From the IMG/VR virus record IMGVR_UViG_3300020468_000011, positions 1 through 49,546 of that record: a stretch of 49,546 nucleotides of DNA; one strand, 5' to 3'. Of the stretch, positions 15,733 to 49,546 are shown piece by piece; the stretch's first letter is position 1, and each line of letters begins with the position of its first letter. This DNA comes from a virus. The notes under the pieces are model-generated. The model saw only the letters and a program-made list of their open reading frames with translations, was not told the origin of the DNA and ran no database searches. A program made the translations under genes and the position numbers.

Positions 15733-17309
15733 GTAGCATCGTATGTAACTGCTGTGCTGTCATACTTCACTGCAGTGGATGAGAAGTCAGTATCACCTTG
15801 TCCACCACCAAGTCCTGATACAGACAGTGTGGCAACAGAAGACATTAGAGGTGAGTTACTTGCATTATTAGCGGGTGAAGGTCCTCTCAATTCAACCTTA
15901 TACTTATAGTTGGACATGTATCCCAAAGCAGTAAATGCTAGTGAGTTACTTGTTGCTCCAGTAACTGCAGCGTATGCAAATCCACCGTCAGTTGATCTAT
16001 ACCACTGATATGAAATAGGACCAGGTATAGGAGAGACGCTTGCTTGGACTGTGAATGTAACAGTAGTATTGACTGCTGCTGTGCCACTTTGAGGTTGTGC
16101 AGTAATTTGTAACGTAGGTGTAACAGGAGGTGCTCCACCGTCACCACCACCTTGTGAAGGAGGTGCTGCTGCTCCATTATTAGCAGGAGCATTTAAACTC
16201 TCTCTACTTAAGGTGCCAACCATATATGGATATGCTGCTTCACCTGTTGCATCAATAGAAATAAAATATGCATAAGTCCCATCGGGAAACTCAGGAGTTA
16301 CACAATATCTTCCGTTGTGTATATCCAAATCCCCAACACCATCAATATATTCCCAGTCCTGTATCAAAGATCCTGCAGGTGGGTTTTGTGCTGTGGTGCC
16401 GTAATCAGGTCTCCCTGCTGTTTCAATATTTTTTGTCCTATAGCTAGATCCCATAAACCTAGTTGTTTGGGACGCTGTAAACGGCACATCATATCCGAAA
16501 GGTCCGTAAACAGGAAATCCATCAAAACAATATCCTAAAATTTTACTATGTCCATCAGGATGACGCATGTTGTCACCATTAAACTGACTGCTGCCATAGT
16601 AATCGTTATAGTTTGCCATGGCAGAATTCTGCTTCCAACAATCTATAAAATGAGTATCATGATAATGGTATTGTCCTGTTGACTCTGGATGTCCTCCACA
16701 AGAGTCATCACCAAAATCTACAGGTGAGCTAGGATAATGTGCATTCCAATTAAATCCAACAGGAGGGTTACCTCCATTACCTGCACTGGGATTAAAGAAT
16801 ACAACACCGTTAGCAGCAATGCCAATAGATCCAAGAGGAGTCTCTATACGTCCATTTCTTTGATCGTAATATGTGTATGTGCCTGTTGGTATTGTTTGTG
16901 AATCTGCAACAATGAGATCTAATCTTTGGTCTGTGGCGAGCCAGCATTCTCCTGCAATGGACGTAAATGTTGTCCCTCTAAATATAAATCGTTGTTTCCT
17001 ACCGTCACTAAAGACAAACATGAGATGATCGCCAGGAGCAATAGTTTCGGCAGCAAATAAGGCATTGTCATTAGTTGATATATTTACAGAGATAACAAAA
17101 CCACTTTGGAAGTATGTGTTATCATCGAAAGTCCTAGTAATACCAAACTCTCCACCACGATAAGTAAACGAATGTGAAAACGCTTGCTCAGTAACACCAT
17201 TCGGGTTATTGAGATTAGGAAAGGTACCGTAACTAACTGGATCAGGAAGACCATCACCAGTTACGGCTATCACTTTCGTGCCAGAATTGTAGGTTGCTGT
17301 AGCGGTCAT
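15729..17309 (-). CDS. YHYH-domain virion protein with C-terminal Ig-like domain
   Basis: Residues ~130-380 form a YHYH domain: GGHPESTGQYHYHDTHF with the motif at residues 214-217, then ILGYCFDGFPVYGPFGYDV, and later GRYCVTPEFPDGTYAYFISI. The biochemical role of this family is not known to me. The dense His cluster suggests metal binding, which is inference. Residues ~405-505 form an Ig-like domain (QITAQPQSGTAAV ... ISYQWYRSTDGG), a common carbohydrate or surface-binding decoration of phage structural proteins. A short DSTAVTYDAT-like tail follows. The start codon overlaps the stop of the giant gene by four bases, so it is probably made with it. A divergent copy of the YHYH domain lies inside the giant protein. 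No signal peptide, as expected for a virion part. Confidence 0.8.
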   Translation of the reverse strand: MTATATYNSGTKVIAVTGDGLPDPVSYGTFPNLNNPNGVTEQAFSHSFTYRGGEFGITRTFDDNTYFQSGFVISVNISTNDNALFAAETIAPGDHLMFVFSDGRKQRFIFRGTTFTSIAGECWLATDQRLDLIVADSQTIPTGTYTYYDQRNGRIETPLGSIGIAANGVVFFNPSAGNGGNPPVGFNWNAHYPSSPVDFGDDSCGGHPESTGQYHYHDTHFIDCWKQNSAMANYNDYYGSSQFNGDNMRHPDGHSKILGYCFDGFPVYGPFGYDVPFTASQTTRFMGSSYRTKNIETAGRPDYGTTAQNPPAGSLIQDWEYIDGVGDLDIHNGRYCVTPEFPDGTYAYFISIDATGEAAYPYMVGTLSRESLNAPANNGAAAPPSQGGGDGGAPPVTPTLQITAQPQSGTAAVNTTVTFTVQASVSPIPGPISYQWYRSTDGGFAYAAVTGATSNSLAFTALGYMSNYKYKVELRGPSPANNASNSPLMSSVATLSVSGLGGGQGDTDFSSTAVKYDSTAVTYDAT

Positions 17310-39388: not shown

Positions 39389-41494
39389 TTAGAAACAGTC
39401 CGTGATATCGGGATAAGTGAAAGTATCCGTGGGGTAGTCAAGTATATTTAGCTCTCCACCACCAAAGTTAAATCCACTGAAATTATTAGGATCGAAGATA
39501 GGGACTGATAAGTCGTTGATCGTATAATCGATTGGATTGACGTCTGGGTTGAAGATGATTGGGTCTGTGCCTGCAGGAGGCTCAAGCGATCCACCACTAG
39601 GGTAAACTACTACGGGAATTCTTAATGTGTTGTCGGGTGTCAATGCAACGTTGATAGGTCCTACACACACTTCGCCAGTGTTGTAATCGACTGTGCCGAC
39701 ATTATTGTTTAGGATGACTTCTGCCTCATCTCTAATAGTAACAAGCATCATGTTACCTTTACCATCGTCTCTTAAATTTACAGGGACAAGAGTTTGTGCG
39801 GTTGTAGAAGATAATGTTGCTGTATCTACTTGCACAACACCACTAGTTAAGTTGGCATTATTGAGAAGACTCTCAGTATATCCAGTTGCATAGAATGTGC
39901 CTGACTTAACTACAGAGAAGGTTGGTTTACATGTGCCATCAGACCCACCTGTGCCGTCCCCTGAGGTGCCATTACCGTCTGGAGTGCCCGAATAGTCGCC
40001 AGGTCTGAATAAAGGATTATTGAAGTCTAAACACTGGTTAAATACTTGACCAAACTGGAATGCATCAATATTTTGACCAAGGGTTATTTGAGATGTGCTA
40101 CCTGAGATAGCGGGATCTGAATTATCGATTACTCCAGAATACTTAGATCCTTCAAATCTATTGTTGAATCTATTTGCAGAATTTTGTGAGTTATAGTCAT
40201 CGATATTCTTCAACACTTTTGTCCTTAGGTCATTAGAACTAAGATTAGTGTCATTACCGTTATAGTAAACGTAAGACTTAGGAATAACATAGAGAGTTGT
40301 TGGGTCAATGATAATCGGGTCGATAGCACCGATTGAATAATCCTTCAACTGGTTTTTAATTCTTACTTTTGTTGTTTCGTTAAGCTTAGCTCCAGTCTTA
40401 GGTCTAACTGCAACGTAAACCTTACCATAAACAGGAGGATTTAACTTTTCACCACCATATGCAACCACTGATCGTGATTGTGGATATAGTTGTCTCACCA
40501 GATTCTCAAAATCTCTTTCTGTAACTGCTCTGTTTTGTGTTGTATACAATCTAGGAGCATTATACTTGATAGAAACAGGTGTTTCTCTATCTTCACCGTC
40601 TGCTGCCTGATTTTCAGTAACAACAGTGATTGAGCTGTTACCAACTATGCGTCCTTCACTGTCAGATGCTGTACCGATGAATGAAAAGTCTCTTGCACCG
40701 TTTGCTTCCTTACCAACAGTCCTTACATAGTCAATTTTTACAAATTCACCATCAACTAGTTGTCTTCCCAACACTCCATCACCAAAGATTACCTTATAAC
40801 GCAAATCGTCAACTTCCTCGAGGAAGTAAATACGAGAATTTGAGTCTAAGTCAACAGAGGTTGTTGATCTGTTGTAAATATCAATTTCAGAAGATTGCAC
40901 AGAAGGAGAAATGTAAACAATCATTCTTTCAGTATCTACATCTTCACTAGGAATGATATATTCTTGTCTTTTTGTATTATTAACAATAAACGAGTAAGTA
41001 AGTAGGTTGCCCTGATAAGTTGCAAGACATCTAAAGGTAGCAATACCAGTAGATTGGTCAACAGGTGCTTGTATCTGACTTAAGATTGTAAATATATAAT
41101 CATCAAAGTTATTTTCAGCACTAAATGAGTCACCCTTGTTAATTGTAACCTGCTCAGGGTAAGTTAAACCATTTGCACCGATTAAAGTCTGCACAGTTAC
41201 TGTCACATATGCTTTTGGAGACTTAACACTACGAGGAGTGTAGTTGAGTTGCTTAGCAACCTTAACAATATTGTCTCTGACAGTAGATGTTTCTAGAAAT
41301 GCCTCATTGAGAGACATGTTAGCATTGAATGCTGTATAGTATGTGTTATATGCAAGAGTGTCTAGCAAATAAGACGCAGCAGATCCTTCAAAGTCATAAT
41401 CAGTAAACTCTGATCGTGTCCTAAGGTATGATCTTATGGATTCCTTGATTTCAAAGAAATCTAAGGAGGTTAATTCTGATGGTACTGCAGGCAT
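39389..41494 (-). CDS. 6: Baseplate wedge protein gp6
   Basis: A 701-aa protein against 660 for T4 gp6. The N-terminus (SLDFFEIKESIRSYLRTRSE, then FEGSAASYLLDTLAYNTYY) and LNEAFLETSTVRDNIVKVAK with LNYTPRSVKSPKAY are typical of cyanophage gp6. The middle carries the Baseplate_J type segment YNAPRLYTTQNRAVTERDFE near residue 311 and the GKVYVAVRPKTGAKLN strand. In T4 gp6 dimers form the ring that holds the wedges together. The C-terminal 180 residues hold a Gly/Ser linker (GTPDGNGTSGDGTGGSDGTC) and a Pro/Asn-rich tail. The ATG overlaps the gp25 stop (TAATG), and the giant gp7-like gene begins 6 bases after its stop. Confidence 0.92.
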   Translation of the reverse strand: MPAVPSELTSLDFFEIKESIRSYLRTRSEFTDYDFEGSAASYLLDTLAYNTYYTAFNANMSLNEAFLETSTVRDNIVKVAKQLNYTPRSVKSPKAYVTVTVQTLIGANGLTYPEQVTINKGDSFSAENNFDDYIFTILSQIQAPVDQSTGIATFRCLATYQGNLLTYSFIVNNTKRQEYIIPSEDVDTERMIVYISPSVQSSEIDIYNRSTTSVDLDSNSRIYFLEEVDDLRYKVIFGDGVLGRQLVDGEFVKIDYVRTVGKEANGARDFSFIGTASDSEGRIVGNSSITVVTENQAADGEDRETPVSIKYNAPRLYTTQNRAVTERDFENLVRQLYPQSRSVVAYGGEKLNPPVYGKVYVAVRPKTGAKLNETTKVRIKNQLKDYSIGAIDPIIIDPTTLYVIPKSYVYYNGNDTNLSSNDLRTKVLKNIDDYNSQNSANRFNNRFEGSKYSGVIDNSDPAISGSTSQITLGQNIDAFQFGQVFNQCLDFNNPLFRPGDYSGTPDGNGTSGDGTGGSDGTCKPTFSVVKSGTFYATGYTESLLNNANLTSGVVQVDTATLSSTTAQTLVPVNLRDDGKGNMMLVTIRDEAEVILNNNVGTVDYNTGEVCVGPINVALTPDNTLRIPVVVYPSGGSLEPPAGTDPIIFNPDVNPIDYTINDLSVPIFDPNNFSGFNFGGGELNILDYPTDTFTYPDITDCF

Positions 41495-41904
41495 TACGTC
41501 CTCTCTAGTATGAAATCGATTTCTTTAACGATTCTTTCTCCAACAATCGTATACTCTACTCTTACTTCAAGTGAGTTTACATCGAAACCGTCTGTTACGT
41601 TAACAGATACGACTCTTATGCGTTTTTCGTATCTATCTAAAGTGCTGTTAATCTCGTCTTTGATCGCCTCACCTGTAAAAACATCATAAGGCTCAAATAG
41701 AAGTCCTGTCACTCGAGATCCGACATCATACTGAAAAGGTTTCTCACCTATATCGGTTTTGATCAAATTTAGCACTGCCTGTTTGATTGCATTCTCATTT
41801 TTGACAGCACCAAAGTCGCGGCTATTAGGATTTGCTTTGAAAGACATTGCAAAATCTCTAAAACCACGACTTATGTTTTTATCTGATCTAATTCTGTATG
41901 ACAC
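41494..41904 (-). CDS. 25: Baseplate wedge protein gp25
   Basis: A 136-aa protein of the GPW/gp25 family (T4 gp25 is 132 aa). Diagnostic parts are NENAIKQAVLNLIKTDIGEK with PFQYDVGSRVTGLLFEP, and the C-terminal VNSLEVRVEYTIVGERIVKE-like strand. In T4 it forms the wedge core with gp6 and gp53, and lines the sheath start. The start is GTG at 41904 (GTG TCA TAC AGA); no in-frame ATG lies upstream, and the next internal ATG, at residue 20, would cut into the fold. A short leader ORF precedes it. The stop overlaps the gp6 ATG by one base, so translation is coupled. Confidence 0.9.
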   Translation of the reverse strand: MSYRIRSDKNISRGFRDFAMSFKANPNSRDFGAVKNENAIKQAVLNLIKTDIGEKPFQYDVGSRVTGLLFEPYDVFTGEAIKDEINSTLDRYEKRIRVVSVNVTDGFDVNSLEVRVEYTIVGERIVKEIDFILERT

Positions 41905-41948
41905 TCTACATGAATATGAATTTTGCCATAATATAAGTTATACTTTAT

Positions 41949-41955
41949 TATTTAG
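41949..41955 (-). promoter_or_regulatory. Late promoter-like motif (CTAAATA) upstream of gp25
   Basis: The minus strand reads GGCTAAATAATAAAG 45 bases upstream of the gp25 GTG. As with the motif before the 490-aa gene, it overlaps the TAA stop of the preceding gene (the 46-aa protein). The stop codon supplies part of the motif, so chance cannot be excluded. Confidence 0.4.
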
Positions 41956-42092
41956 CCTTGTCCACGATACTTTTTACGCGGTTTGTTTCTAGAGGTAGCA
42001 GAAAGTTTTGTATTCTGACTTTTACCCTGTCTTGTCTTCTTAGGTTTTGTATCTACTCCACCCGATACGAAGGCTGTTGATCTAGTTGCCAT
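41952..42092 (-). CDS. Small basic protein, 46 aa, unknown function
   Basis: A short gene with ATG at 42092, translating to MATRSTAFVSGGVDTKPKKT, then RQGKSQNTKLSATSRNKPRK and KYRGQG. Eleven or more Lys/Arg residues make it strongly basic and probably unstructured alone. It lies 18 bases after the PAAR gene and just before gp25, a place where short basic ORFs occur in related cyanophages. It may bind nucleic acid or act as a tail-assembly peptide; neither is shown. The conserved position and packing support a real gene in spite of its size. Confidence 0.65.
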   Translation of the reverse strand: MATRSTAFVSGGVDTKPKKTRQGKSQNTKLSATSRNKPRKKYRGQG

Positions 42093-42110
42093 AATGATTT
42101 AATAAAGTGA

Positions 42111-42641
42111 TTAACCTGCCCAAACATTCATAGAGCCATAAGCTACTACTGATGAGCAAGGATACGAGAAGCCAGGAAATCCGACTCCTAGTGGGTCTAA
42201 CTGTCTAGCAATCAATCGCTTGAGTGCAAACACAGTTAAGGTTGTAGGATATAGAGTCCTATCGTGTCCTACACCTCCATCCTCTGTCGTTAAGACTGAG
42301 CATGGGTAGGGTGTAGGTTTTGGACATAGTGATTTACCACATGGACACATATGGATTACTATGTTAGTGCAGGTTGACGGATGTTTTATAAACTTGTCAC
42401 CTGCAAGCATGATTGGATAACCATTGACTAATACTGTAGCACGGTTTGGTGCTAGTGGTGTCATTGGTATCAGACTCAGAGGTGGCCACCAACAAGTATA
42501 CTCTTTAATACGAATAGTCCTTGTCCTTGGGATTGCTCCGCAAGACTCTGTGCTATGCACAGTAGGGGGTAGACACAACCCATGTCCAGAGTCAGGTAGA
42601 CCATTGATAGCAGCGACTGGTTTTAGAAATCCAAATCCCAT
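42111..42641 (-). CDS. 5.4: PAAR-like spike tip protein (gp5.4 type)
   Basis: A 176-aa protein with a PAAR-like core: RATVLVNGYPIMLAGDKFIK followed by HPSTC and CPCGKSLCPKP. The VxVNGxPxxxxGDxxxxH pattern is typical of the PAAR cone, whose His and Cys residues hold a metal ion at the tip of the tail spike. T4 gp5.4 is shorter (97 aa); here an N-terminal segment (PVAAINGLPDSGHGL) and a C-terminal extension (FGYPCSS-like, ending NVWAG) are added. The ATG overlaps the stop of the 1223-aa gene (TAATG), which suggests the two proteins work together. PAAR identity is good; the exact metal ligands need a model. Confidence 0.75.
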   Translation of the reverse strand: MGFGFLKPVAAINGLPDSGHGLCLPPTVHSTESCGAIPRTRTIRIKEYTCWWPPLSLIPMTPLAPNRATVLVNGYPIMLAGDKFIKHPSTCTNIVIHMCPCGKSLCPKPTPYPCSVLTTEDGGVGHDRTLYPTTLTVFALKRLIARQLDPLGVGFPGFSYPCSSVVAYGSMNVWAG

Positions 42642-45600
42642 TATCCTTGACCCTCTAGTTGTCTACCATCTAGATATGGGTATTTATCTTGGCACTCGTC
42701 GAAGAATGGATTACCTACATTTTTAATACTTCTAGACAAAGCATTGGTGCCCCCTGTCAAATAATTTAGTATCTGCATCCTACCACTATAGTCACCCATC
42801 TTAATTCTGTAACGCTCTGTCTCCATACGCTTAGGGTCAATGGCAATAGAGCAGTCTGCAACATGAGCTAGTGCATTACACTGGTTACACAGACCACCTC
42901 CTGATCCTGGCCAACTACTGCTTATAGTATTGTTTCCATTTGCTCCTGTATTTGTTGCTGAAGGTGGGGTGATCTCATAATAGGTTTGTCCTGCAAGTGG
43001 ATTTCCGCTGTCATCCCATCCGCAGTAGACATCAAGAGGTCCATTTGTGTTACTGCCCTTACGCACATACCTGTCCCAACAATCGTGAGGAATATTGGTA
43101 GGGTCACTTGGACAAGACCCGCTATTGACTGAAAACTGAGTATAACTTTGAGATCCTGGTGTTGGGACGCCATCGATTAGTGTGCTCCAATTAGAAGTAG
43201 TGTCCGTAGGACTGCCATCTAGGTTGTTTCCTAACCACAAACTAAATTGTTGTGCTCTAGTATAACTGCTACGGTTATAATCATATGTATTTTCGTCAAG
43301 TCCGATTGGGACGTATTCTATACTATTGTTACTACCACGGTAACAGCGACCTGGCACGTTACCTCTAGTGCAATTCCATGTTTTATACCCGCCACTTACG
43401 TTTCTCTTAGGTGTAATTTTAGGTTTTGGTAAAGAATTTAAGAATTTCATAAAATCTTGACCTTGAGGACCTGTAGTTTTTCCGTCAAATGACAGAGAAA
43501 CCGTAAATTCTGCTTTTTCGTCATTAGGTGCACAGTATTTCCACGGCAAATACCCAAATGCCTTCCGCGATGCCCTAAATTGGTCTTGTTTTTCGCCGTA
43601 AAAGTTTTCTCGAGGCTCTTCTTCTGCTTCCATATACGCACAAGGCATCTGAAACCACTTTTTGATGTTGTGAATCACTGGTTGATCAACAATCATGCAC
43701 CTATTTCCGTCAAAACTTCCGTAGAGACCACTAAATGACTCGCTATCTGCACCAGATTGCTGCAATCCACCCAAAATATCGGAATATACACCGCTTGCAA
43801 ACTTCTCAGCAGCGGGAGATGACTGCTCATTGGGTCCTAACATCATTTGTGGAGGCTCTTGGGCACTTAAATTCTCAAAAGTCTCTACAGGAGGCATCGC
43901 ATCTATCAAAGGAAGACCCATTTCTATCTGTATACAGTCCGCAGGAAGGTTTTGACACAAAACTGTCTTACCTTCTGGGTCAACTTCTGCGTATTCCATG
44001 TATGTTATGGGAATATTGCTAGTGTAACCCTTGTTTATAGCCGCCATTTCGTCTGTAACCTGATTTGCAGCGAGTGGATTGCCCTCAGACTCAAAATCAA
44101 ACATCTCTATAATGTCAGTTTGGGACGAATCTAGTGTAGGCTCGTCAAATTTAGTATCAACATCGATGGCAAGACCCGATTCTGCGATATAAACCTGTGG
44201 TGGGAAGTGCGGATCGTAACCTGATCCACCTTCTAGCACATCAATACGCTTGATGATACCTGATTTTGTAATACTACCTACCCTAATCTCCGCATTACGG
44301 AATTGTTGCACTGTATCAAACTCTCTTTCCTTCCTATTTTGCAATACTTGGAGTTGTCTACGCTCAAATTTATCCAAAGATATCTTCTGCTCACCTATTT
44401 CACCTGTATCATTATACTTTGGAAACTTGTTTACTGGTGCATCGTAGTCTCTGAGGAAGGCACCACGCATCTGACGTGCTGTATCCATGCTACTAAACTC
44501 TTCTAACTGACCAGGCTCTGCAATAGTGACGATAGGATTGCGATATCCCACCCCTCCATTGATAACTTTGATCTCAACTATCTTTCCTTCAGTGTCTACA
44601 ACCGCTTCTGCCTCTGCTAGATCAAGTGTCCGTGTTGGTATAAGTGCTTTTGGATCTAACTTTACCTTATAGTATGATATATTCTTCTCAAATTCATACA
44701 CTCCGAAGAATGCTGCCTTATCTTCTATGCCATAACCTGCTAAAACTTGAATAGTTGCGGAAGGTGAAGGGGTATCACCCTCGTCTACAGGGTATGGTCT
44801 ACTACTAAACTGCTGTTGATAGGTAAATTTGTTACCTTTAGTGGTGCCATCACCTGTCAATTCCATATAACCCGCATTCATCTTACCACCAAAGTAGAAA
44901 ATGCCTGTAATATTCCATCCGTTTATACTTTCTCCCTTCTTAAATGTGCCAGTAGTAGTCAAATACTTGAAAAATATCCTATGAGTGTAAGTATCTGCAG
45001 TCCTAAATGACTCTTCGACGCCACTTCCCGCAGGTCCTGTGACATCAATACGAGTTTTTGTGGTTTTCCATGAGTCTTCGCGGATCTGATAGAAGTGAGA
45101 ATACCATTCTTCGTTAACAACACATGTATTATTGTTGTTTTGACGGTGATTTGGGCAACAACCTGCATCTGAGAGCAGATATTGTATTCCAAATATAGGA
45201 CCATTCCATGGATATGACGTGTCATACAGATAATACATGTATTGTGAGTCGTATGCAGTCTGGAATCCTAGGAATCTGGGCACTGCTCCCTTGACTGCAC
45301 CGTTTAATCCATACAACCACTCGAAGTTTGCGTCTCCATCTGCCTGCACACCACCTACAATACCTGCATTACCCGACTCACCAAACCCTCCAACACCTGG
45401 TGTGCCTATAGGTTGACCAAATGCATTAGTCCCGAAGGATCCTTTCCTATATGATTTGTAACTAAACGGATTACTACTAGTAGTATCCCATGTATACCAA
45501 CCTGATTTGTCTACACATTGACCAGTAGGACCTATCTTACCAATATCTTCATACTTATTATCTGATGCATCTGGGTTTTCTGTTTGAAAAACATATCCAA

Positions 45601-46312
45601 AGATGCCCTGATAGACATATTGACCTGCTCTTGGGTCTGCAGGAGCAATAGGACCACCACTTAGGTTAACTTCTTGTGCAGGATTAATAGTATAGAAGTG
45701 ATCTTCTGGGTCATAGAAGTATTCATACAGGGGCACAGCGGTCTCTCCTGTCCCTGCATAGGCATTTGCATCACTTTCACTCGTAAAAATATATCCTAGT
45801 ATCCCTACAAGGTAGTATGGTTTACCATTATTGCTAGCTGGTGGTGTCTGTGAGAGAGTTAACTGCGTATCATCGTCTCTCTCCCCTCTATAATGAATAT
45901 AAACAGGCACCGAATTAGTAACCTGAGTATTCATCAGGTAGAAAACAGGTATCTGCCCCTGTCTAGGCTCTGGATTATATCCTCTTAATACTTTTTGCCA
46001 GTGCTCATCGTCCCCAATAGCATGCTCTTTTGTCAACTCTGGGGTTTTTGCGTATTTGTGATCGTCTTTACTACCTCTATAGAAGCGATAAACAGGTTGT
46101 CTACCATCATCACAGTTGGCAATACATGTTTTCTGCTCCTCACCAATGTAATGCACTATGTCCTTACCTAAAGGCATAGTCCCAGGTCCCTCATCGAGAT
46201 ACTCTATAGTATAACTCTCTGAGTTTTCCTCATCGTAGAAAGGTTTTATGTAATCCTCTCCCTCTACAGGGTTAGGAAACGATCGTTTACTTGATAGGAT
46301 ATAGCAAGGCAA
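42641..46312 (-). CDS. Large cysteine-rich virion protein with DUF5648-like N-terminal modules, 1223 aa
   Basis: Residues ~70-265 contain repeats of the kind seen in DUF5648 modules: QPVYRFYRGSKDDHKYA, VPVYIHYRGERDDD, then VPLYEYFYDPEDHFYT and GIFGYVFQTENPD. Such modules are thought to bind sugars or surfaces. A GxGY unit (NGGVGYRNPIVTIAEPG; EGGSGYDPHFPPQVYIAESG) occurs at ~590-730. The C-terminal 400 residues are rich in Cys and Trp (CTRGNVPGRCYRG, CNQCNALAHVADC), unusual for a phage structural protein. Translation begins at TTG (46312), one base after the stop of the 100-aa gene; a TGA three codons upstream rules out an earlier start, and the next ATG is at residue 46. It overlaps the PAAR gene, so a central hub or spike role is likely. 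No lysozyme motif was found. Confidence 0.7.
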   Translation of the reverse strand: MPCYILSSKRSFPNPVEGEDYIKPFYDEENSESYTIEYLDEGPGTMPLGKDIVHYIGEEQKTCIANCDDGRQPVYRFYRGSKDDHKYAKTPELTKEHAIGDDEHWQKVLRGYNPEPRQGQIPVFYLMNTQVTNSVPVYIHYRGERDDDTQLTLSQTPPASNNGKPYYLVGILGYIFTSESDANAYAGTGETAVPLYEYFYDPEDHFYTINPAQEVNLSGGPIAPADPRAGQYVYQGIFGYVFQTENPDASDNKYEDIGKIGPTGQCVDKSGWYTWDTTSSNPFSYKSYRKGSFGTNAFGQPIGTPGVGGFGESGNAGIVGGVQADGDANFEWLYGLNGAVKGAVPRFLGFQTAYDSQYMYYLYDTSYPWNGPIFGIQYLLSDAGCCPNHRQNNNNTCVVNEEWYSHFYQIREDSWKTTKTRIDVTGPAGSGVEESFRTADTYTHRIFFKYLTTTGTFKKGESINGWNITGIFYFGGKMNAGYMELTGDGTTKGNKFTYQQQFSSRPYPVDEGDTPSPSATIQVLAGYGIEDKAAFFGVYEFEKNISYYKVKLDPKALIPTRTLDLAEAEAVVDTEGKIVEIKVINGGVGYRNPIVTIAEPGQLEEFSSMDTARQMRGAFLRDYDAPVNKFPKYNDTGEIGEQKISLDKFERRQLQVLQNRKEREFDTVQQFRNAEIRVGSITKSGIIKRIDVLEGGSGYDPHFPPQVYIAESGLAIDVDTKFDEPTLDSSQTDIIEMFDFESEGNPLAANQVTDEMAAINKGYTSNIPITYMEYAEVDPEGKTVLCQNLPADCIQIEMGLPLIDAMPPVETFENLSAQEPPQMMLGPNEQSSPAAEKFASGVYSDILGGLQQSGADSESFSGLYGSFDGNRCMIVDQPVIHNIKKWFQMPCAYMEAEEEPRENFYGEKQDQFRASRKAFGYLPWKYCAPNDEKAEFTVSLSFDGKTTGPQGQDFMKFLNSLPKPKITPKRNVSGGYKTWNCTRGNVPGRCYRGSNNSIEYVPIGLDENTYDYNRSSYTRAQQFSLWLGNNLDGSPTDTTSNWSTLIDGVPTPGSQSYTQFSVNSGSCPSDPTNIPHDCWDRYVRKGSNTNGPLDVYCGWDDSGNPLAGQTYYEITPPSATNTGANGNNTISSSWPGSGGGLCNQCNALAHVADCSIAIDPKRMETERYRIKMGDYSGRMQILNYLTGGTNALSRSIKNVGNPFFDECQDKYPYLDGRQLEGQG
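42681..42687 (-). promoter_or_regulatory. Late promoter-like motif (GATAAATA) for the PAAR gene
   Basis: The minus strand reads AAGATAAATACCC 40 bases upstream of the PAAR start, inside the end of the 1223-aa gene. It contains the full ATAAATA core. Confidence 0.45.
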
Positions 46313-46313
46313 T

Positions 46314-46616
46314 TTAACTCAAACGATCTTCCAACTTATTTAGTCGAGAATACAGATCGTCTAAAATCTCTTTGATATTCAAATGTTTCTCATACCCCTC
46401 TGGTTTATACTGAATCATATCAGCACCAGGCGGTGGTTGCTTTCTTATAGCGTCCTCACATATAGCAGTCCTCGCAGCAAGATTCTCTAATCCTTGACCC
46501 ACCTTTTCTAGGCAGAAAGCGATTTTTTCAATATCATCCATACCCTGAGTAGGTAAAGGAGTTGTCGGTTGGGCAGGATCCCCATAACTTATGGGACTAC
46601 TTGATTTAATTGGCAT
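46314..46616 (-). CDS. Small conserved protein, 100 aa, C-terminal coiled coil
   Basis: The N-terminus is Pro/Ser rich (PIKSSSPISYGDPAQPTTPL). Residues 26-60 (DDIEKIAFCLEKVGQGLENL) and 78-100 (NIKEILDDLYSRLNKLEDRL) are amphipathic helices, the last ending in a heptad pattern. A Pro-rich break (KQPPPGADMIQYKPEG) joins them. The gene is one base from the 1223-aa gene and is probably co-translated with it. This suggests a small accessory part of the same structure, perhaps a trimerising or chaperone-like partner. No family recognised. Confidence 0.7.
   Translation of the reverse strand: MPIKSSSPISYGDPAQPTTPLPTQGMDDIEKIAFCLEKVGQGLENLAARTAICEDAIRKQPPPGADMIQYKPEGYEKHLNIKEILDDLYSRLNKLEDRLS
46337..46343 (-). 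promoter_or_regulatory. Late promoter-like motif (CTAAATA) for the 1223-aa gene
   Basis: The minus strand reads GACTAAATAAGTTGG, with the motif 25 bases before the TTG start of the 1223-aa gene. The spacing equals that of the gp8 late promoter (26) and the 490-aa gene (23). Confidence 0.45.
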
Positions 46617-46633
46617 GATCAGTCGCGATTTTT

Positions 46634-46798
46634 TTAGTCGTCAATGGCTACTAGTTTAAGAGACCCATCAGTCTCCTCAGTATATTCAAGAGTGGTGCCT
46701 GCTTTCCATCCCATTTCCTCTAATAACTCAAGCGGTAGAGTAATGAAAAGATCGCAATATTCGTCTTCTTCTATAGTGAGAGTAAATCTTTTACTCAT
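46634..46798 (-). CDS. AbrB/MazE-like small protein, 54 aa
   Basis: A short gene with ATG at 46798: MSKRFTLTIEEDEYCDLFIT, then LPLELLEEMGWKAGTTLEYT and EETDGSLKLVAIDD. The pattern 'hhIPxELLEexGWkxGdxLxxxxxxdGsixL' is that of the swapped-hairpin AbrB/MazE/SpoVT fold, which in bacteria binds DNA as a dimer. No toxin partner is visible next to it. In a phage tail operon it may be a transcriptional switch or an orphan; function is inferred from pattern only. It starts 22 bases after the stop of the NlpC/P60 gene. Confidence 0.65.
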   Translation of the reverse strand: MSKRFTLTIEEDEYCDLFITLPLELLEEMGWKAGTTLEYTEETDGSLKLVAIDD

Positions 46799-46820
46799 TA
46801 ATTGTTATCAGTGTTACACC

Positions 46821-47300
46821 TTATGTAGACTTACCACGAATTGCACCTACGCAAGTCTCCATATAGAAACTATTACCAGGTGCAAGAAGGTCAGTAATCT
46901 GACTTTGCCCCCGATAAGGATGATGTAGCATAAACCCATCACCCAGATAAACACCCCCATGGTTAGGTGCTTGCCCATGTCTCTTAGTATAACCCCCTTC
47001 TAGAGGCGTATACCACAGTCTAAAGAGTATTATATCATCTTTAGCTAGAGTGTCAAGAGATGCTTTCTCCCACATCTCAGACTTCATTACATATTCTCCC
47101 TCTTCAGTGTCAATAGCATTATCAGTAAAAGCATATATCTGATCTAACTTGGTAAAGTCTCTCAGATCTCTATTACAATACAACCGATAGTATTTTCTTA
47201 CACAATGGTAGCAACTCCACGAATGAATGCTTCGCCACTCCTCACCGAGTAAGTGTGAGTATTCCTTCTCTATCTCTTGGAGTTTACTTCTCCTACCCAT
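46821..47300 (-). CDS. NlpC/P60 family cell-wall peptidase (tail-associated)
   Basis: A 159-aa protein with the papain-like NlpC/P60 layout. The catalytic Cys is probably C30 in HSWSCYHCVRKYY, which aligns with the DCWGLVRxYY motif of phage tail peptidases. The His is H114 in APNHGGVYLGDGFMLHH, with H126 or H127 as the third residue; DDIILFR at ~88-94 is the typical preceding strand. Such enzymes cut peptide stems of peptidoglycan, and in tails they help penetration. Here it would replace or add to the lysozyme domain that T4 carries on gp5, which I do not find in this window. The ATG overlaps the preceding stop (TAATG). Confidence 0.85.
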   Translation of the reverse strand: MGRRSKLQEIEKEYSHLLGEEWRSIHSWSCYHCVRKYYRLYCNRDLRDFTKLDQIYAFTDNAIDTEEGEYVMKSEMWEKASLDTLAKDDIILFRLWYTPLEGGYTKRHGQAPNHGGVYLGDGFMLHHPYRGQSQITDLLAPGNSFYMETCVGAIRGKST

Positions 47301-47470
47301 TAGTGTTGTCTGCTATGTTTGTTTGCATCATCTAGTGCTGCTGCCTGAGATCTAAAAGGACCATACTTCCTACAGTCAGGATAATCAAATTGCCAGAAGT
47401 ATTTCCTAGACTTCTCCCATATCTTAATGTCTACTGGGGGCACTGTCGGTAACTGAAATACTTTACTCAT
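47300..47470 (-). CDS. Small protein, 56 aa, unknown function
   Basis: ATG at 47470; MSKVFQLPTVPPVDIKIWEK, then SRKYFWQFDYPDCRKYGPFR and SQAAALDDANKHSRQH. The segment WEKSRKYFWQFDYPDCRKYG resembles short single-sheet motifs, with the order 'W......y....g.f.s...A...A'. No Shine-Dalgarno is visible upstream (ATTTTTTCACCCCCCAACCC). The stop overlaps the ATG of the NlpC/P60 gene, so its chief effect may be coupling translation of that enzyme. The coding pattern and tight overlap support a real gene. Confidence 0.6.
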   Translation of the reverse strand: MSKVFQLPTVPPVDIKIWEKSRKYFWQFDYPDCRKYGPFRSQAAALDDANKHSRQH

Positions 47471-47625
47471 GGGTTGGGGGGTGAAAAAATAATTGAGAAA
47501 TTTTTTAAATATGAATAGAATAAAACTCTCGCTTTGGGATACTTTTGTAGGTTAGGGACTTACCCGATTTTAATATACAACAATATCACCCAATTTAACT
47601 GTCCATACAGACTAGTATAACTGTA
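47471..47625 (-). other. AT-rich intergenic leader
   Basis: A 155-base gap between the 63-aa and 56-aa genes. It has runs such as TATTTAAAAAATTT and a C-run just before the next ATG, with no ATAAATA motif, no strong hairpin followed by T-run and no open frame I would call. A TATATTAAAAT stretch around 47570 could be a -10 region, but no -35 partner is convincing. Confidence 0.3.
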
Positions 47626-47817
47626 TTACTGCATGCCTACCTCATAGCATACTCCCTCTAATACCATATACTCACATAACTGAGTATACTGGGTTAGGTC
47701 TTCATTCAGTCCAGTGTCCAGGAGAAACTGACACATTTCTCCGATTTCATCGGGTGGTAGGTTGCCACTATCATAAAGATCTAGATAGATCTCTAACTGC
47801 TTAGGAAGTGTTTTCAA
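47626..47817 (-). CDS. Small phage protein, 63 aa, TTG start
   Basis: A helical acidic protein (KTLPKQLEIYLDLYDSGNLP, then PDEIGEMCQFLLDTGLNEDL). The pattern 'DLYDSGxLxxxExxxxxQxLxDTGL' is seen in small accessory phage proteins of unknown function. Its start is TTG at 47817, and the TTGA overlaps the TGA stop of the preceding 53-aa gene, the same arrangement as an ATGA coupling. No in-frame ATG lies close by, and starting at the internal M28 would remove half the protein. Confidence 0.6.
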   Translation of the reverse strand: MKTLPKQLEIYLDLYDSGNLPPDEIGEMCQFLLDTGLNEDLTQYTQLCEYMVLEGVCYEVGMQ

Positions 47818-47975
47818 GTGCTGTCTGTGTGATTAGTGTGATTATGCGGACGTGTGTGTTTACCTGTGGAAAACTTCTTAACACTGTCCTTGCTCCTCTG
47901 TTGTCGTCTTTTCTCCCTTAGTGACTTGTTTGCGTTGTTTCGGTGTGGATCATTTTGTTTGTATGTCCTACCCAT
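47814..47975 (-). CDS. Small basic protein, 53 aa
   Basis: ATG at 47975; MGRTYKQNDPHRNNANKSLR, then EKRRQQRSKDSVKKFSTGKH and TRPHNHTNHTDST. It is rich in Lys, Arg, His and Asn with almost no hydrophobic residues, so it is disordered and probably binds nucleic acid. 'M(G/A)(R/K)TYRxND' starts are common among tiny ORFs of marine T4-like phages. A strong sigma70-type promoter lies 31 bases upstream and the 63-aa gene overlaps its stop. Function unknown. Confidence 0.6.
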   Translation of the reverse strand: MGRTYKQNDPHRNNANKSLREKRRQQRSKDSVKKFSTGKHTRPHNHTNHTDST

Positions 47976-48005
47976 GAATAGGGGCGAATACCTTACTACC
48001 TAGTC

Positions 48006-48034
48006 ATAATAAGGCATTAGAGGGCAAAAGTCAA
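48006..48034 (-). promoter_or_regulatory. Sigma70-type promoter for the 53-aa/63-aa genes
   Basis: On the minus strand TTGACT (48034-48029) is followed by a 17-base spacer and TATTAT (48011-48006). Both hexamers match five of six consensus positions and the spacing is ideal. The ATG of the 53-aa gene is 31 bases downstream of the -10. This is the best host-type (early or middle) promoter in the window. Confidence 0.7.
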
Positions 48035-48132
48035 CCCCCCTGAGAGGTCTGTGTGTGTCCTCGGATAATTGTTGACAAAAAAAACTTCGTGTGTTACGCT
48101 CTTAGACAACTGCAATATATCACTCGTAGGTA

Positions 48133-48139
48133 TATTTAT
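48133..48139 (-). promoter_or_regulatory. Late promoter motif (AATAAATA) in the gap after the oxygenase
   Basis: The minus strand reads GTAAATAAATATACC, containing ATAAATA. The nearest downstream gene is the 53-aa ORF, 158 bases away, so this would add a late transcript start above the sigma70 promoter. It lies 70 bases after the 2OG oxygenase stop. Confidence 0.4.
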
Positions 48140-48208
48140 TTACCCATTTTAAATGATTCCCCAGTATGGGCGAGAGTGGGCAAAAACCTGTGGAAAACTA
48201 TCTAACAT

Positions 48209-48841
48209 TTATTTGTCTGGTATAAAGTTAACTGTCATTGTTACTCGGTCATCGTAGGGGTTACCCTCGTATCCGTGAGTCATGCTTGACGGATAGATGA
48301 TTAGATCTCCCTCCTCCATAGGCACAGTTGCTTCGGTCATATTAAAAGCGGTATAGTCTTTGTTTGGGAATTGCATAACAGGATAATAAGATCCTGCTAC
48401 ATTCCTTCTAAATTTTAACGGCGAATGCCCATCCTGATAGTTAATGAGTAATGTTGCTGAGTAGATACAATTAGAATGCTCATGTGGTGCATATAGGGCA
48501 CCTTTAGTTGCTAATTCCAAATAACAGTCAGATATACTAAAATTTAGATCATAGTTGTATGCTTCCGTGTTATACTGTTTACATGCATCCAGTAAAAAAT
48601 CGGCGACACTGCGAGAATCTTCCAGTATTCTATTTCTTGCTCCAATCTGTGAAACATTATGAGTTATTGCTAATCGCTCATGCTCCTGTCTGATTTCTTG
48701 GGTTTCTATCCACTTGAATATTTCTTTTTTAACAGTGGGAAAGTTTGGCATACTATACCGACCGACTGGTAAAGCGAAAAGTGCGTAAACCTCGTTGACT
48801 GGTTGCTTTGGTAGTGAATCGCTTAATGGTGATGAAGTCAT
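48209..48841 (-). CDS. 2OG-Fe(II) oxygenase-like protein
   Basis: A 210-aa protein with the layout of phage 2OG-Fe(II) dioxygenases of the TIGR02466 type. Metal-site residues are H120 in YAPHEHSNCIYSATLLI (with E121 and H122 next to it) and distal H189 in DLIIYPSSMTHG; R199 in DDRVTMTVNF is placed to bind 2-oxoglutarate. The N-terminus (VYALFALPVGRYSMPNF) matches the 'lFptpv' start of this family. Such genes are common in marine T4-like phages, and their substrates are mostly unknown; protein or nucleotide hydroxylation is possible. No ribosome site is obvious before the ATG. A terminator hairpin and a CTAAATA motif lie just upstream. Confidence 0.8.
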   Translation of the reverse strand: MTSSPLSDSLPKQPVNEVYALFALPVGRYSMPNFPTVKKEIFKWIETQEIRQEHERLAITHNVSQIGARNRILEDSRSVADFLLDACKQYNTEAYNYDLNFSISDCYLELATKGALYAPHEHSNCIYSATLLINYQDGHSPLKFRRNVAGSYYPVMQFPNKDYTAFNMTEATVPMEEGDLIIYPSSMTHGYEGNPYDDRVTMTVNFIPDK

Positions 48842-48850
48842 CTTATAAAA

Positions 48851-48878
48851 TGAAAAAATAGGGGTGAGAGTGCCCCTA
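48851..48878 (-). terminator. Rho-independent terminator
   Basis: On the minus strand TAGGGG (48878-48873), an 8-base loop and CCCCTA (48864-48859) form a perfect 6-bp stem, followed at once by TTTTTT (48858-48853). It would end transcripts of the 106-aa gene and shield the oxygenase from read-through. Confidence 0.75.
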
Positions 48879-48884
48879 GTGTGT

Positions 48885-48891
48885 TATTTAG
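48885..48891 (-). promoter_or_regulatory. Late promoter-like motif (CTAAATA) just upstream of the terminator
   Basis: The minus strand reads AACTAAATAACAC 44 bases before the oxygenase ATG. A T4-type late start would fall about 6-7 bases downstream, at ~48878, that is at the first base of the terminator hairpin. Confidence 0.4.
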
Positions 48892-48960
48892 TTGTTTGGG
48901 GACTTATAAAGAATTTAAAACTAGATGCATTGCAATGTTAAAAATTTCGAGATGCCCCGA

Positions 48961-48994
48961 GAGCGGTTAGTCGATTGCTAACTCCATACCGCTC
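48961..48994 (-). repeat. Inverted repeat spanning the stop of the 106-aa gene
   Basis: GAGCGGT at 48961-48967 pairs with ACCGCTC at 48988-48994 (7 bp), and an inner GTTAG/CTAAC arm pairs inside. It covers the last codons and the TAG stop. No T-run follows directly, so it is more likely an mRNA 3' structure than a terminator. Confidence 0.45.
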
Positions 48995-49287
48995 ACGAAA
49001 TCCTCTTTAACATTCTTGTAACCTACGAACCACTCGTAGTTTTTCTGAAATACTCTCATACCATATGAGAATTCATCAAGTAGAGCGTTTAAGCGTGATT
49101 TGGTTGTATTTGACTGCCAACCGCCATCTTTGATGATAATTGAGTTAGACTTGATTGTAGCGATGTGGTTACCATGTAAATAAACGTCTGCTTCGTTATC
49201 CCATCCACACCTAACCATTGTATTGGATGATGAGAAGTTAGATCTTGATCTTACTGCTGCATTCATTTGTCTTTCGATCTTTCTCAT
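48967..49287 (-). CDS. Conserved marine phage protein, 106 aa, unknown function
   Basis: MRKIERQMNAAVRSRSNFSS followed by NTMVRCGWDNEADVYLHGNH, IATIKSNSIIIKDGGWQSNT and TKSRLNALL. The combination of a basic N-terminal helix, a beta 'VYLHGNxIA' strand and 'GGWxSxTTKSRLNALL' is recurrent in short proteins of marine T4-like phages, none with a known role as far as I know. The ATG has a good AGGAG 9 bases upstream and a TATAAT further up, so it is expressed on its own. An RNA hairpin spans its stop codon, and the terminator at 48851-48878 follows. Confidence 0.75.
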   Translation of the reverse strand: MRKIERQMNAAVRSRSNFSSSNTMVRCGWDNEADVYLHGNHIATIKSNSIIIKDGGWQSNTTKSRLNALLDEFSYGMRVFQKNYEWFVGYKNVKEDFVSGMELAID

Positions 49288-49318
49288 TTGGATGAACTCC
49301 TGTGTTGCTTATACTAAT

Positions 49319-49324
49319 ATTATA
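49319..49324 (-). promoter_or_regulatory. -10 box (TATAAT) and SD site for the 106-aa gene
   Basis: The minus strand carries a perfect TATAAT 32 bases before the ATG, with AGGAG at 49301-49297 as ribosome site. No good -35 hexamer lies 16-18 bases upstream, so an activator or a phage-modified polymerase may be needed. TGACAC/GTGTCA half-sites occur just upstream (49331-49376). Confidence 0.4.
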
Positions 49325-49386
49325 ATGGATTGACACCTGTATTCCACACTTGTTGTGACAGTAATATAAGTGTCATATGGATTAAC

Positions 49387-49405
49387 CAGATCAGTATTTG
49401 ATCTG
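49387..49405 (-). repeat. Perfect 7-bp inverted repeat with 5-base loop
   Basis: CAGATCA (49387-49393) and TGATCTG (49399-49405) pair around GTATT. It overlaps the stop codon of the truncated ORF. No T-run follows on the minus strand, so a terminator is not certain; it may protect the 3' end of the message. Confidence 0.5.
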
Positions 49406-49546
49406 CTTATTATCCATAGTGATGATTGTGAAACCTGATCTTTTTAACATGTTTCTGTATCTCACTATCTGCTGACTTGATAGAAATGCATCTGTATCTT
49501 TAACCCATGCAATGTAGGATACACTTGCTAGTTTAGTCTTATCAAT
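49391..49546 (-). CDS. C-terminal end of an unknown protein (partial, start beyond window)
   Basis: The minus strand is open from the right edge for 51 codons to a TGA at 49391-49393: IDKTKLASVSYIAWVKDTDA, then FLSSQQIVRYRNMLKRSGFT and IITMDNKQIKY. It contains an amphipathic helix (SSQQIVRYRNMLKRSG) followed by a hydrophobic strand, a credible protein end. The start is outside the window, so length and family are unknown. A 7-bp inverted repeat overlaps its stop. Confidence 0.5.
   Translation of the reverse strand: MDKTKLASVSYIAWVKDTDAFLSSQQIVRYRNMLKRSGFTIITMDNKQIKY

Follow-up and report, generated by a model that had tools for sequence, protein, structure and literature searches.

A T4-Type Late Promoter Box Beside an Intrinsic-Terminator-Like Hairpin between the gp96 and Oxygenase Genes of a Cyanophage: A Possible Case of a Recurring Layout

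Introduction

How can a late promoter operate at a place where transcripts of the preceding gene appear to end? The question is raised by a short intergenic region of a T4-like marine cyanophage, part of which is contained in a virus record of 49,546 bases; this whole stretch was analyzed, and is referred to below as the window. The gene-sized open reading frames flanking the site lie on the minus strand, where the Kyano_Gp96 gene (gp96) is followed by 125 intergenic bases and a 2OG-Fe(II) oxygenase gene. An initial annotation had noted a CTAAATA motif in this region, and placed the start of a late RNA near position 48878, at the first base of a TAGGGG...CCCCTA hairpin with a T-run. Early transcripts from the right were proposed to stop at the hairpin, while late transcripts would carry it as a 5′ cap-like structure, which could make a compact early/late switch for the oxygenase gene.

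Results

Organization of the gp96–oxygenase intergenic region

Features of the region are collected in Table 1. CTAAATA is present on the minus strand at exactly the coordinates given by the initial annotation, and is followed by 6 bases, the hairpin with its T6 run, both as described there, another 11 bases, and the oxygenase ATG. The box resembles the T4-type late promoter box (TATAAATA), which stands approximately one helical turn before the start; it is read directly from the sequence, and the start itself is a prediction. In T4 late-promoter numbering the last A of the box is −6, in agreement with the spacing of one helical turn given in the literature available to us. By this rule, position 48879 ± 1 would be the first base of the window RNA, which places the predicted start at the hairpin foot and close to the position originally suggested. 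The hairpin (−8.4 kcal/mol when folded alone) has six pairs, four of them G-C, directly followed by T6. It has the appearance of an intrinsic terminator acting on RNA that arrives from the right, where gp96 has a −10 box of its own. No Rfam family was found at the gathering threshold. The stem begins 88 nt after the gp96 stop codon; a weak second terminator-like site, located just past this stop, was seen only in the window, L002, and L003 among the leaders compared below. The downstream gene does encode an oxygenase by both profile matches, the PF13759 match scoring 31.5 bits against a curated cut-off of 27.

Table 1. Features around the gp96–oxygenase intergenic region, in window coordinates.
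Feature	Position	Strand	Basis
T4-type late promoter box CTAAATA	48885..48891	-	Sequence; invariant in 5 distinct aligned oxygenase leaders
Invariant promoter block CCCAAACAACTAAATAA	48884..48900	-	Aligned leaders (5 distinct)
Predicted late transcription start, 48879 ± 1	48878..48880	-	T4 late-promoter geometry (inferred)
Intrinsic-terminator-like hairpin TAGGGG-CACTCTCA-CCCCTA, tail TTTTTTCATT	48859..48878	-	Hairpin scan, folding
T6 run after stem	48853..48858	-	Sequence
2OG-Fe(II) oxygenase gene, 210 aa	48209..48841	-	PF13759 E=2.4e-07; phrog_81 E=6.3e-29
Kyano_Gp96 gene (upstream), 106 aa	48967..49287	-	PF23790 E=3.2e-43
TATAAT −10 box of gp96 promoter	49319..49324	-	Sequence
Weak second terminator-like site just past gp96 stop	48947..48960	-	5 pairs, 3 G-C
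22-bp dyad, 30 nt upstream of gp96 −10 box	49355..49376	-	One mismatch to GTGNCA-N10-TGNCAC

Neither motif alone beats chance in the window. CTAAATA occurs 8 times against 11.7 expected from shuffles, and its enrichment in the window was rejected; positions 40000–49546 contain 7 terminator-like sites against 5.0 expected (sd 2.4). The case therefore depends on relatives. That every late promoter is accompanied by a hairpin was also rejected, the window's other gene-proximal late boxes being free of one. What exceeds chance is the combination only, that is, conservation in relatives together with the spacing excess across 13 genomes.

Two other features of the window are recorded here. Positions 47029–47056 (minus strand) contain a perfect 12/12 σ70-like promoter, TTGACA-16-TATAAT with TG before the −10 box, inside ORF 46821–47300. 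The same strand also has one ORF of 7,358 aa (positions 17306–39382), a striking length for a phage protein.

Oxygenase leaders of close relatives

The nearest named relative over this region is Cyanophage P-TIM40, whose oxygenase-leader hairpin lies at about 55463 of record KP211958. We compared 14 oxygenase leaders, those of the window, P-TIM40, and 12 of 13 IMG/VR loci (L011, with an incomplete 5′ end, was left out; for L012–L014, the leader is the sequence upstream of match residue 6). The arrangement is present in half of them (the window, L002–L006, and P-TIM40; five distinct sequences), and CTAAATA is absent at this place in the other seven (L007–L010 and L012–L014). In each of the seven positive leaders, the invariant block, a stem, a T-run, and the ATG follow in the same order.

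The stems themselves differ, being TAGGGG...CCCCTA, AGGGGC...GCCCCT, or AGGGATC...GATCCCT, and pairing is kept in all. Two pair positions are altered on both sides, from G-C to A-T (GGGG/CCCC in some stems is GGGA/TCCC in others) and from an inner C-G to T-A; since the MAFFT leader alignment placed the stems out of register, these compensatory changes were judged by eye, without pair-counting. The loop differs too, and the box-to-stem spacing is 6, 10, or 11 nt in the scan (9 rather than 10 when an outer A-T pair is counted). The bare stems are predicted to fold with −7.9 to −10.7 kcal/mol each. In the relatives, the T-runs are T4–T5, with just four T residues in L004 and P-TIM40.

An exact IMG/VR scan with CCAAACAACTAAATAA, made without reference to a hairpin, returned 41 records, 36 of which are different sequences and five of which are oxygenase leaders; all five have a hairpin 6–11 nt downstream. 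At the sequence level, the pair formed by promoter block and hairpin is conserved in close relatives while stem sequence, spacing, and loop vary.

Recurrence across cyanophage genomes

By the rule used, 1,019 terminator-like hairpins were found in a set of 13 cyanophage genomes plus the window. In this set, CTAAATA is followed by a stem 0–14 nt downstream in 8 of 363 cases, and the next six 15-nt bins hold 2, 1, 0, 4, 1, and 1. CTAAATA ranks first of 105 anagrams for a near stem, the other 104 giving a pooled 289/64,041, in a control that ignores the intergenic preference of both box and stem. Since homologous pairs (G001/MbCM1 and the window/P-TIM40) are included, about six of the eight cases are independent. 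Late-type cases have a box-to-stem spacing of 0–12 nt. The σ70-like boxes (at least 5/6 matches in both) show a sharp pile-up at 0 nt from the stem: in 11 of 871, the stem lies 0–3 nt after the −10 box, against 0.72 expected from uniform placement. The predicted start falls inside the hairpin for 13 σ70-like promoters.

An abutting promoter of any class was found at 38 of the 1,019 terminators, compared to 6–27 at shifted positions (27 at a 15-nt shift and 21 at a 60-nt shift), and the layout as a general rule was rejected on this number. By these counts, it is a real but minority arrangement, with roughly two or three instances per genome and a modest excess. The initial annotation had tied the layout to the oxygenase gene; it is present there, but genes for a phrog_773 head protein, an endonuclease VII-like protein, and a phrog_249 protein also stand downstream of it. 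Abutting sites in Syn9 are located at 130378 and 168323. In IMG/VR, the pattern CTAAATA-N0-14-stem-T5 had at least 120 matches and its N30-44 version 84, so that for these patterns, both with a T-run, the near excess is a lower bound; near matches listed include phages of unknown host. In T4 and RB49, TATAAATA lies upstream of a terminator within 120 nt in 0 of 32 and 0 of 14 cases, and follows a terminator in 4 and 3 cases, respectively, numbers too small for a contrast.

The same observations could reflect plain crowding, the short intergenic space having brought the gp96 terminator beside a late promoter at a spacing that has no function. The variable spacing, both within the oxygenase family (6–11 nt) and among late-type cases, is compatible with this explanation, as are the 981 terminators with no abutting promoter. 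Moreover, the upstream ORF ends 5–33 nt before the stem in 23 of 31 listed abutting cases (the window, at 88 nt, is outside these), where a terminator is expected anyway. But neither the excess of CTAAATA at the near position (8 against 0–4 in the shifted bins) nor the pile-up of σ70-like boxes at 0 nt is expected from crowding alone, and we consider this explanation unlikely.

In L441, L462, L473, and similar pieces, the relation of the two elements is of another kind: the terminator hairpin takes in the −35 box belonging to the early promoter that follows, as in a stem holding TTGACA with TATAAT ~17 nt further.

Promoters downstream and upstream of gp96

In two larger records, G002 and G007, gp96 likewise precedes an orthologue of the oxygenase gene (phrog_81 matches in both; 43% identity for G002). 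Between the two genes, a σ70-like −10 box directly abuts a different hairpin with a T-run, the stem being 5–6 bases from the ATG. The promoter class thus appears to have changed at this gene pair, early for late, with the layout kept. A survey of the 200 bases after the gp96 stop, covering the best 80 of 495 loci and using a relaxed −35 rule (4/6), revealed no terminator in 43 loci and a terminator in 37. An abutting promoter accompanies 31 of the latter (27 early-like and 4 late), and 6 are without one.

Two other kinds of sequence were seen near these genes. Downstream of gp96 in L073 and L076, a σ70-like −10 box appears by eye to occupy the loop of a larger hairpin with T6 after it, which would be a third way to nest a promoter and a terminator. 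An element of the approximate sequence GACGCCAAATTTTTTA, which is not a canonical terminator, recurs near gp96 or the oxygenase gene in varied contexts (L007, L019, L035, L036, and L064).

The gp96 promoter itself belongs to a group with the consensus TGTGNCA-N10-TGNCACA, 30 nt, TATAAT, and usually no −35 box. Counted over the 13 genomes and the window, 84 dyads that match 9 or more of the 10 fixed letters are followed by a −10-like box 29–32 nt downstream; the spacing is exactly 30 nt in 56, 31 nt in 17, and 29 nt in 8, with counts of 0–6 elsewhere, and the best −35 match is 4/6 or lower in 79 of the 84. With the real inner spacer there are 128 dyads, 50 with TATAAT, against 26 and 2 in a control with a longer inner spacer, near-palindromes being scored on both strands in these counts. 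No dyad with a −10 box at a spacing of 29–32 nt was found in T4 or RB49. A cyanophage genome has up to 11 such sites, often before small genes; examples come from the window (49319–49376, minus strand), P-TIM40, G001, MbCM1, G002, G006, G007, and P-SSM2 (pieces L102–L111, L140–L157, L580–L589, L600–L609, and L629–L650). The dyad with TATAAT has the look of a promoter class that depends on an activator and serves early or middle genes of cyanophages, and may be more novel than the abutting layout.

Discussion

The most likely interpretation, to which we give an even chance, is that, in the window, a T4-type late promoter is squeezed between gp96 and its intrinsic terminator, as one case of a recurring cyanophage layout. 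RNA coming from gp96 would form the full hairpin with the U-tract and stop, so that transcription of the early or middle unit upstream would not reach the oxygenase gene, the hairpin acting as an insulator. The late polymerase would start at the hairpin foot and transcribe the oxygenase gene. One short stretch would thereby end one unit and start the next: the terminator of the upstream unit, with the promoter of the next gene, whether a late box or a σ70 −10 box, pushed against it.

We infer three things for the window: the box would work as a late promoter, the hairpin would stop transcription, and the late polymerase would run through a terminator whose end lies at about +27. Since transcription is predicted to begin ~1 nt ahead of the stem, the late RNA would keep the hairpin, and the polymerase would have to get past the terminator; this passage is the weakest step of the mechanism. 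For abutting early promoters, escape would follow from geometry, because the start lies in the loop or the 5′ arm and the new RNA is nearly unstructured (predicted folds of −0.8 and −1.2 kcal/mol in two examples).

A different possibility is that the hairpin mainly serves the late mRNA, the 5′ stem blocking 5′-end-dependent decay and the U-rich stretch replacing a Shine-Dalgarno sequence with an S1-type landing site for ribosomes. The predicted window RNA does start 1 nt before the stem, no clear Shine-Dalgarno sequence was seen on inspection before the ATG at 48841, and the stem is kept in relatives. However, the stems of the relatives are 9–11 nt from the box, so that by the T4 rule the P-TIM40, L004, and L005 leaders would have ~4–6 unpaired 5′ bases, and most abutting early promoters would start inside the hairpin and make RNAs without it, as in the two nearly unstructured examples. 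A role for the hairpin in the late mRNA is, in our opinion, quite improbable. The same variation in stem-to-start distance argues against the cap-like role of the initial annotation as the main point; the late RNA may have a cap-like 5′ hairpin, but this is not the feature that the relatives have in common. Least probable, and very doubtful, is a promoter-proximal attenuator, with most late transcripts ending in the T-run at ~27 nt and the oxygenase made from escaping polymerases only: the full hairpin and T6 do lie downstream of the predicted start, but the T-runs are shorter in relatives and the extended fold contains no competing structure.

Returning to the interpretation of a promoter set against a terminator, its more general form is that cyanophages use a compact reusable element, a promoter box touching a terminator stem, in which upstream RNA would form the whole hairpin and end, and promoter RNA, starting in the hairpin or at it, would escape. 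This would provide an insulated promoter in ~50 bp whose box, at one gene pair, may be of either the early or the late class. We hold this tentatively, as falling a little short of an even chance. If this holds, it would account for the separation of neighboring early and late units in large marine phages, where intergenic space is scarce, and would provide a short natural insulator promoter. Annotators would also be warned that a terminator call and a promoter call, when only a few bases separate them on the same strand, can belong to a single element.

Several known systems share parts of this arrangement. Stems that stabilize the 5′ end are known on bacterial mRNAs such as ompA, and the window stem is likewise within about a base of the predicted 5′ end; unlike in those mRNAs, any stabilizing role here is putative, and the distance is not kept in relatives. 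The GC-rich stem and T6 are those of Rho-independent terminators, but the window stem does not stand apart from other promoters: it lies at the predicted start of one.

The nearest described switch is that of the T4 gene e and I-TevI leaders, in which, according to the accessible part of the source, a hairpin hides the ribosome-binding site, and the late start removes its 5′ arm (PMC3014915). There, as in the window, a late box lies beside or inside a hairpin, at which upstream-initiated and late RNAs differ. Unlike these translational controls, the window hairpin has a T-run and would probably be whole in the late RNA by the T4 rule (which, from geometry only, puts the start 1 nt ahead of the stem, give or take 1–2 nt). 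It is confined to 48878–48859, and the ATG lies 17 nt after the stem. Being terminator-like, and leaving the start codon uncovered in the predicted fold, it is probably not a switch of the gene e type.

A further comparison is with the T4-type late promoters of cyanomyoviruses, given as NATAAATA in the available parts of two reports (PMC2984593, PMC3037559), the second of which made separate predictions of promoters and of terminators for 16 genomes. Those parts describe no promoter-abutting terminators, and we found no account of them in phages in the accessible open-licence literature. The window has the same −10-type box upstream of a gene; it differs from the late promoters as described in these sources in having the CTAAATA variant, with a terminator stem directly after it.
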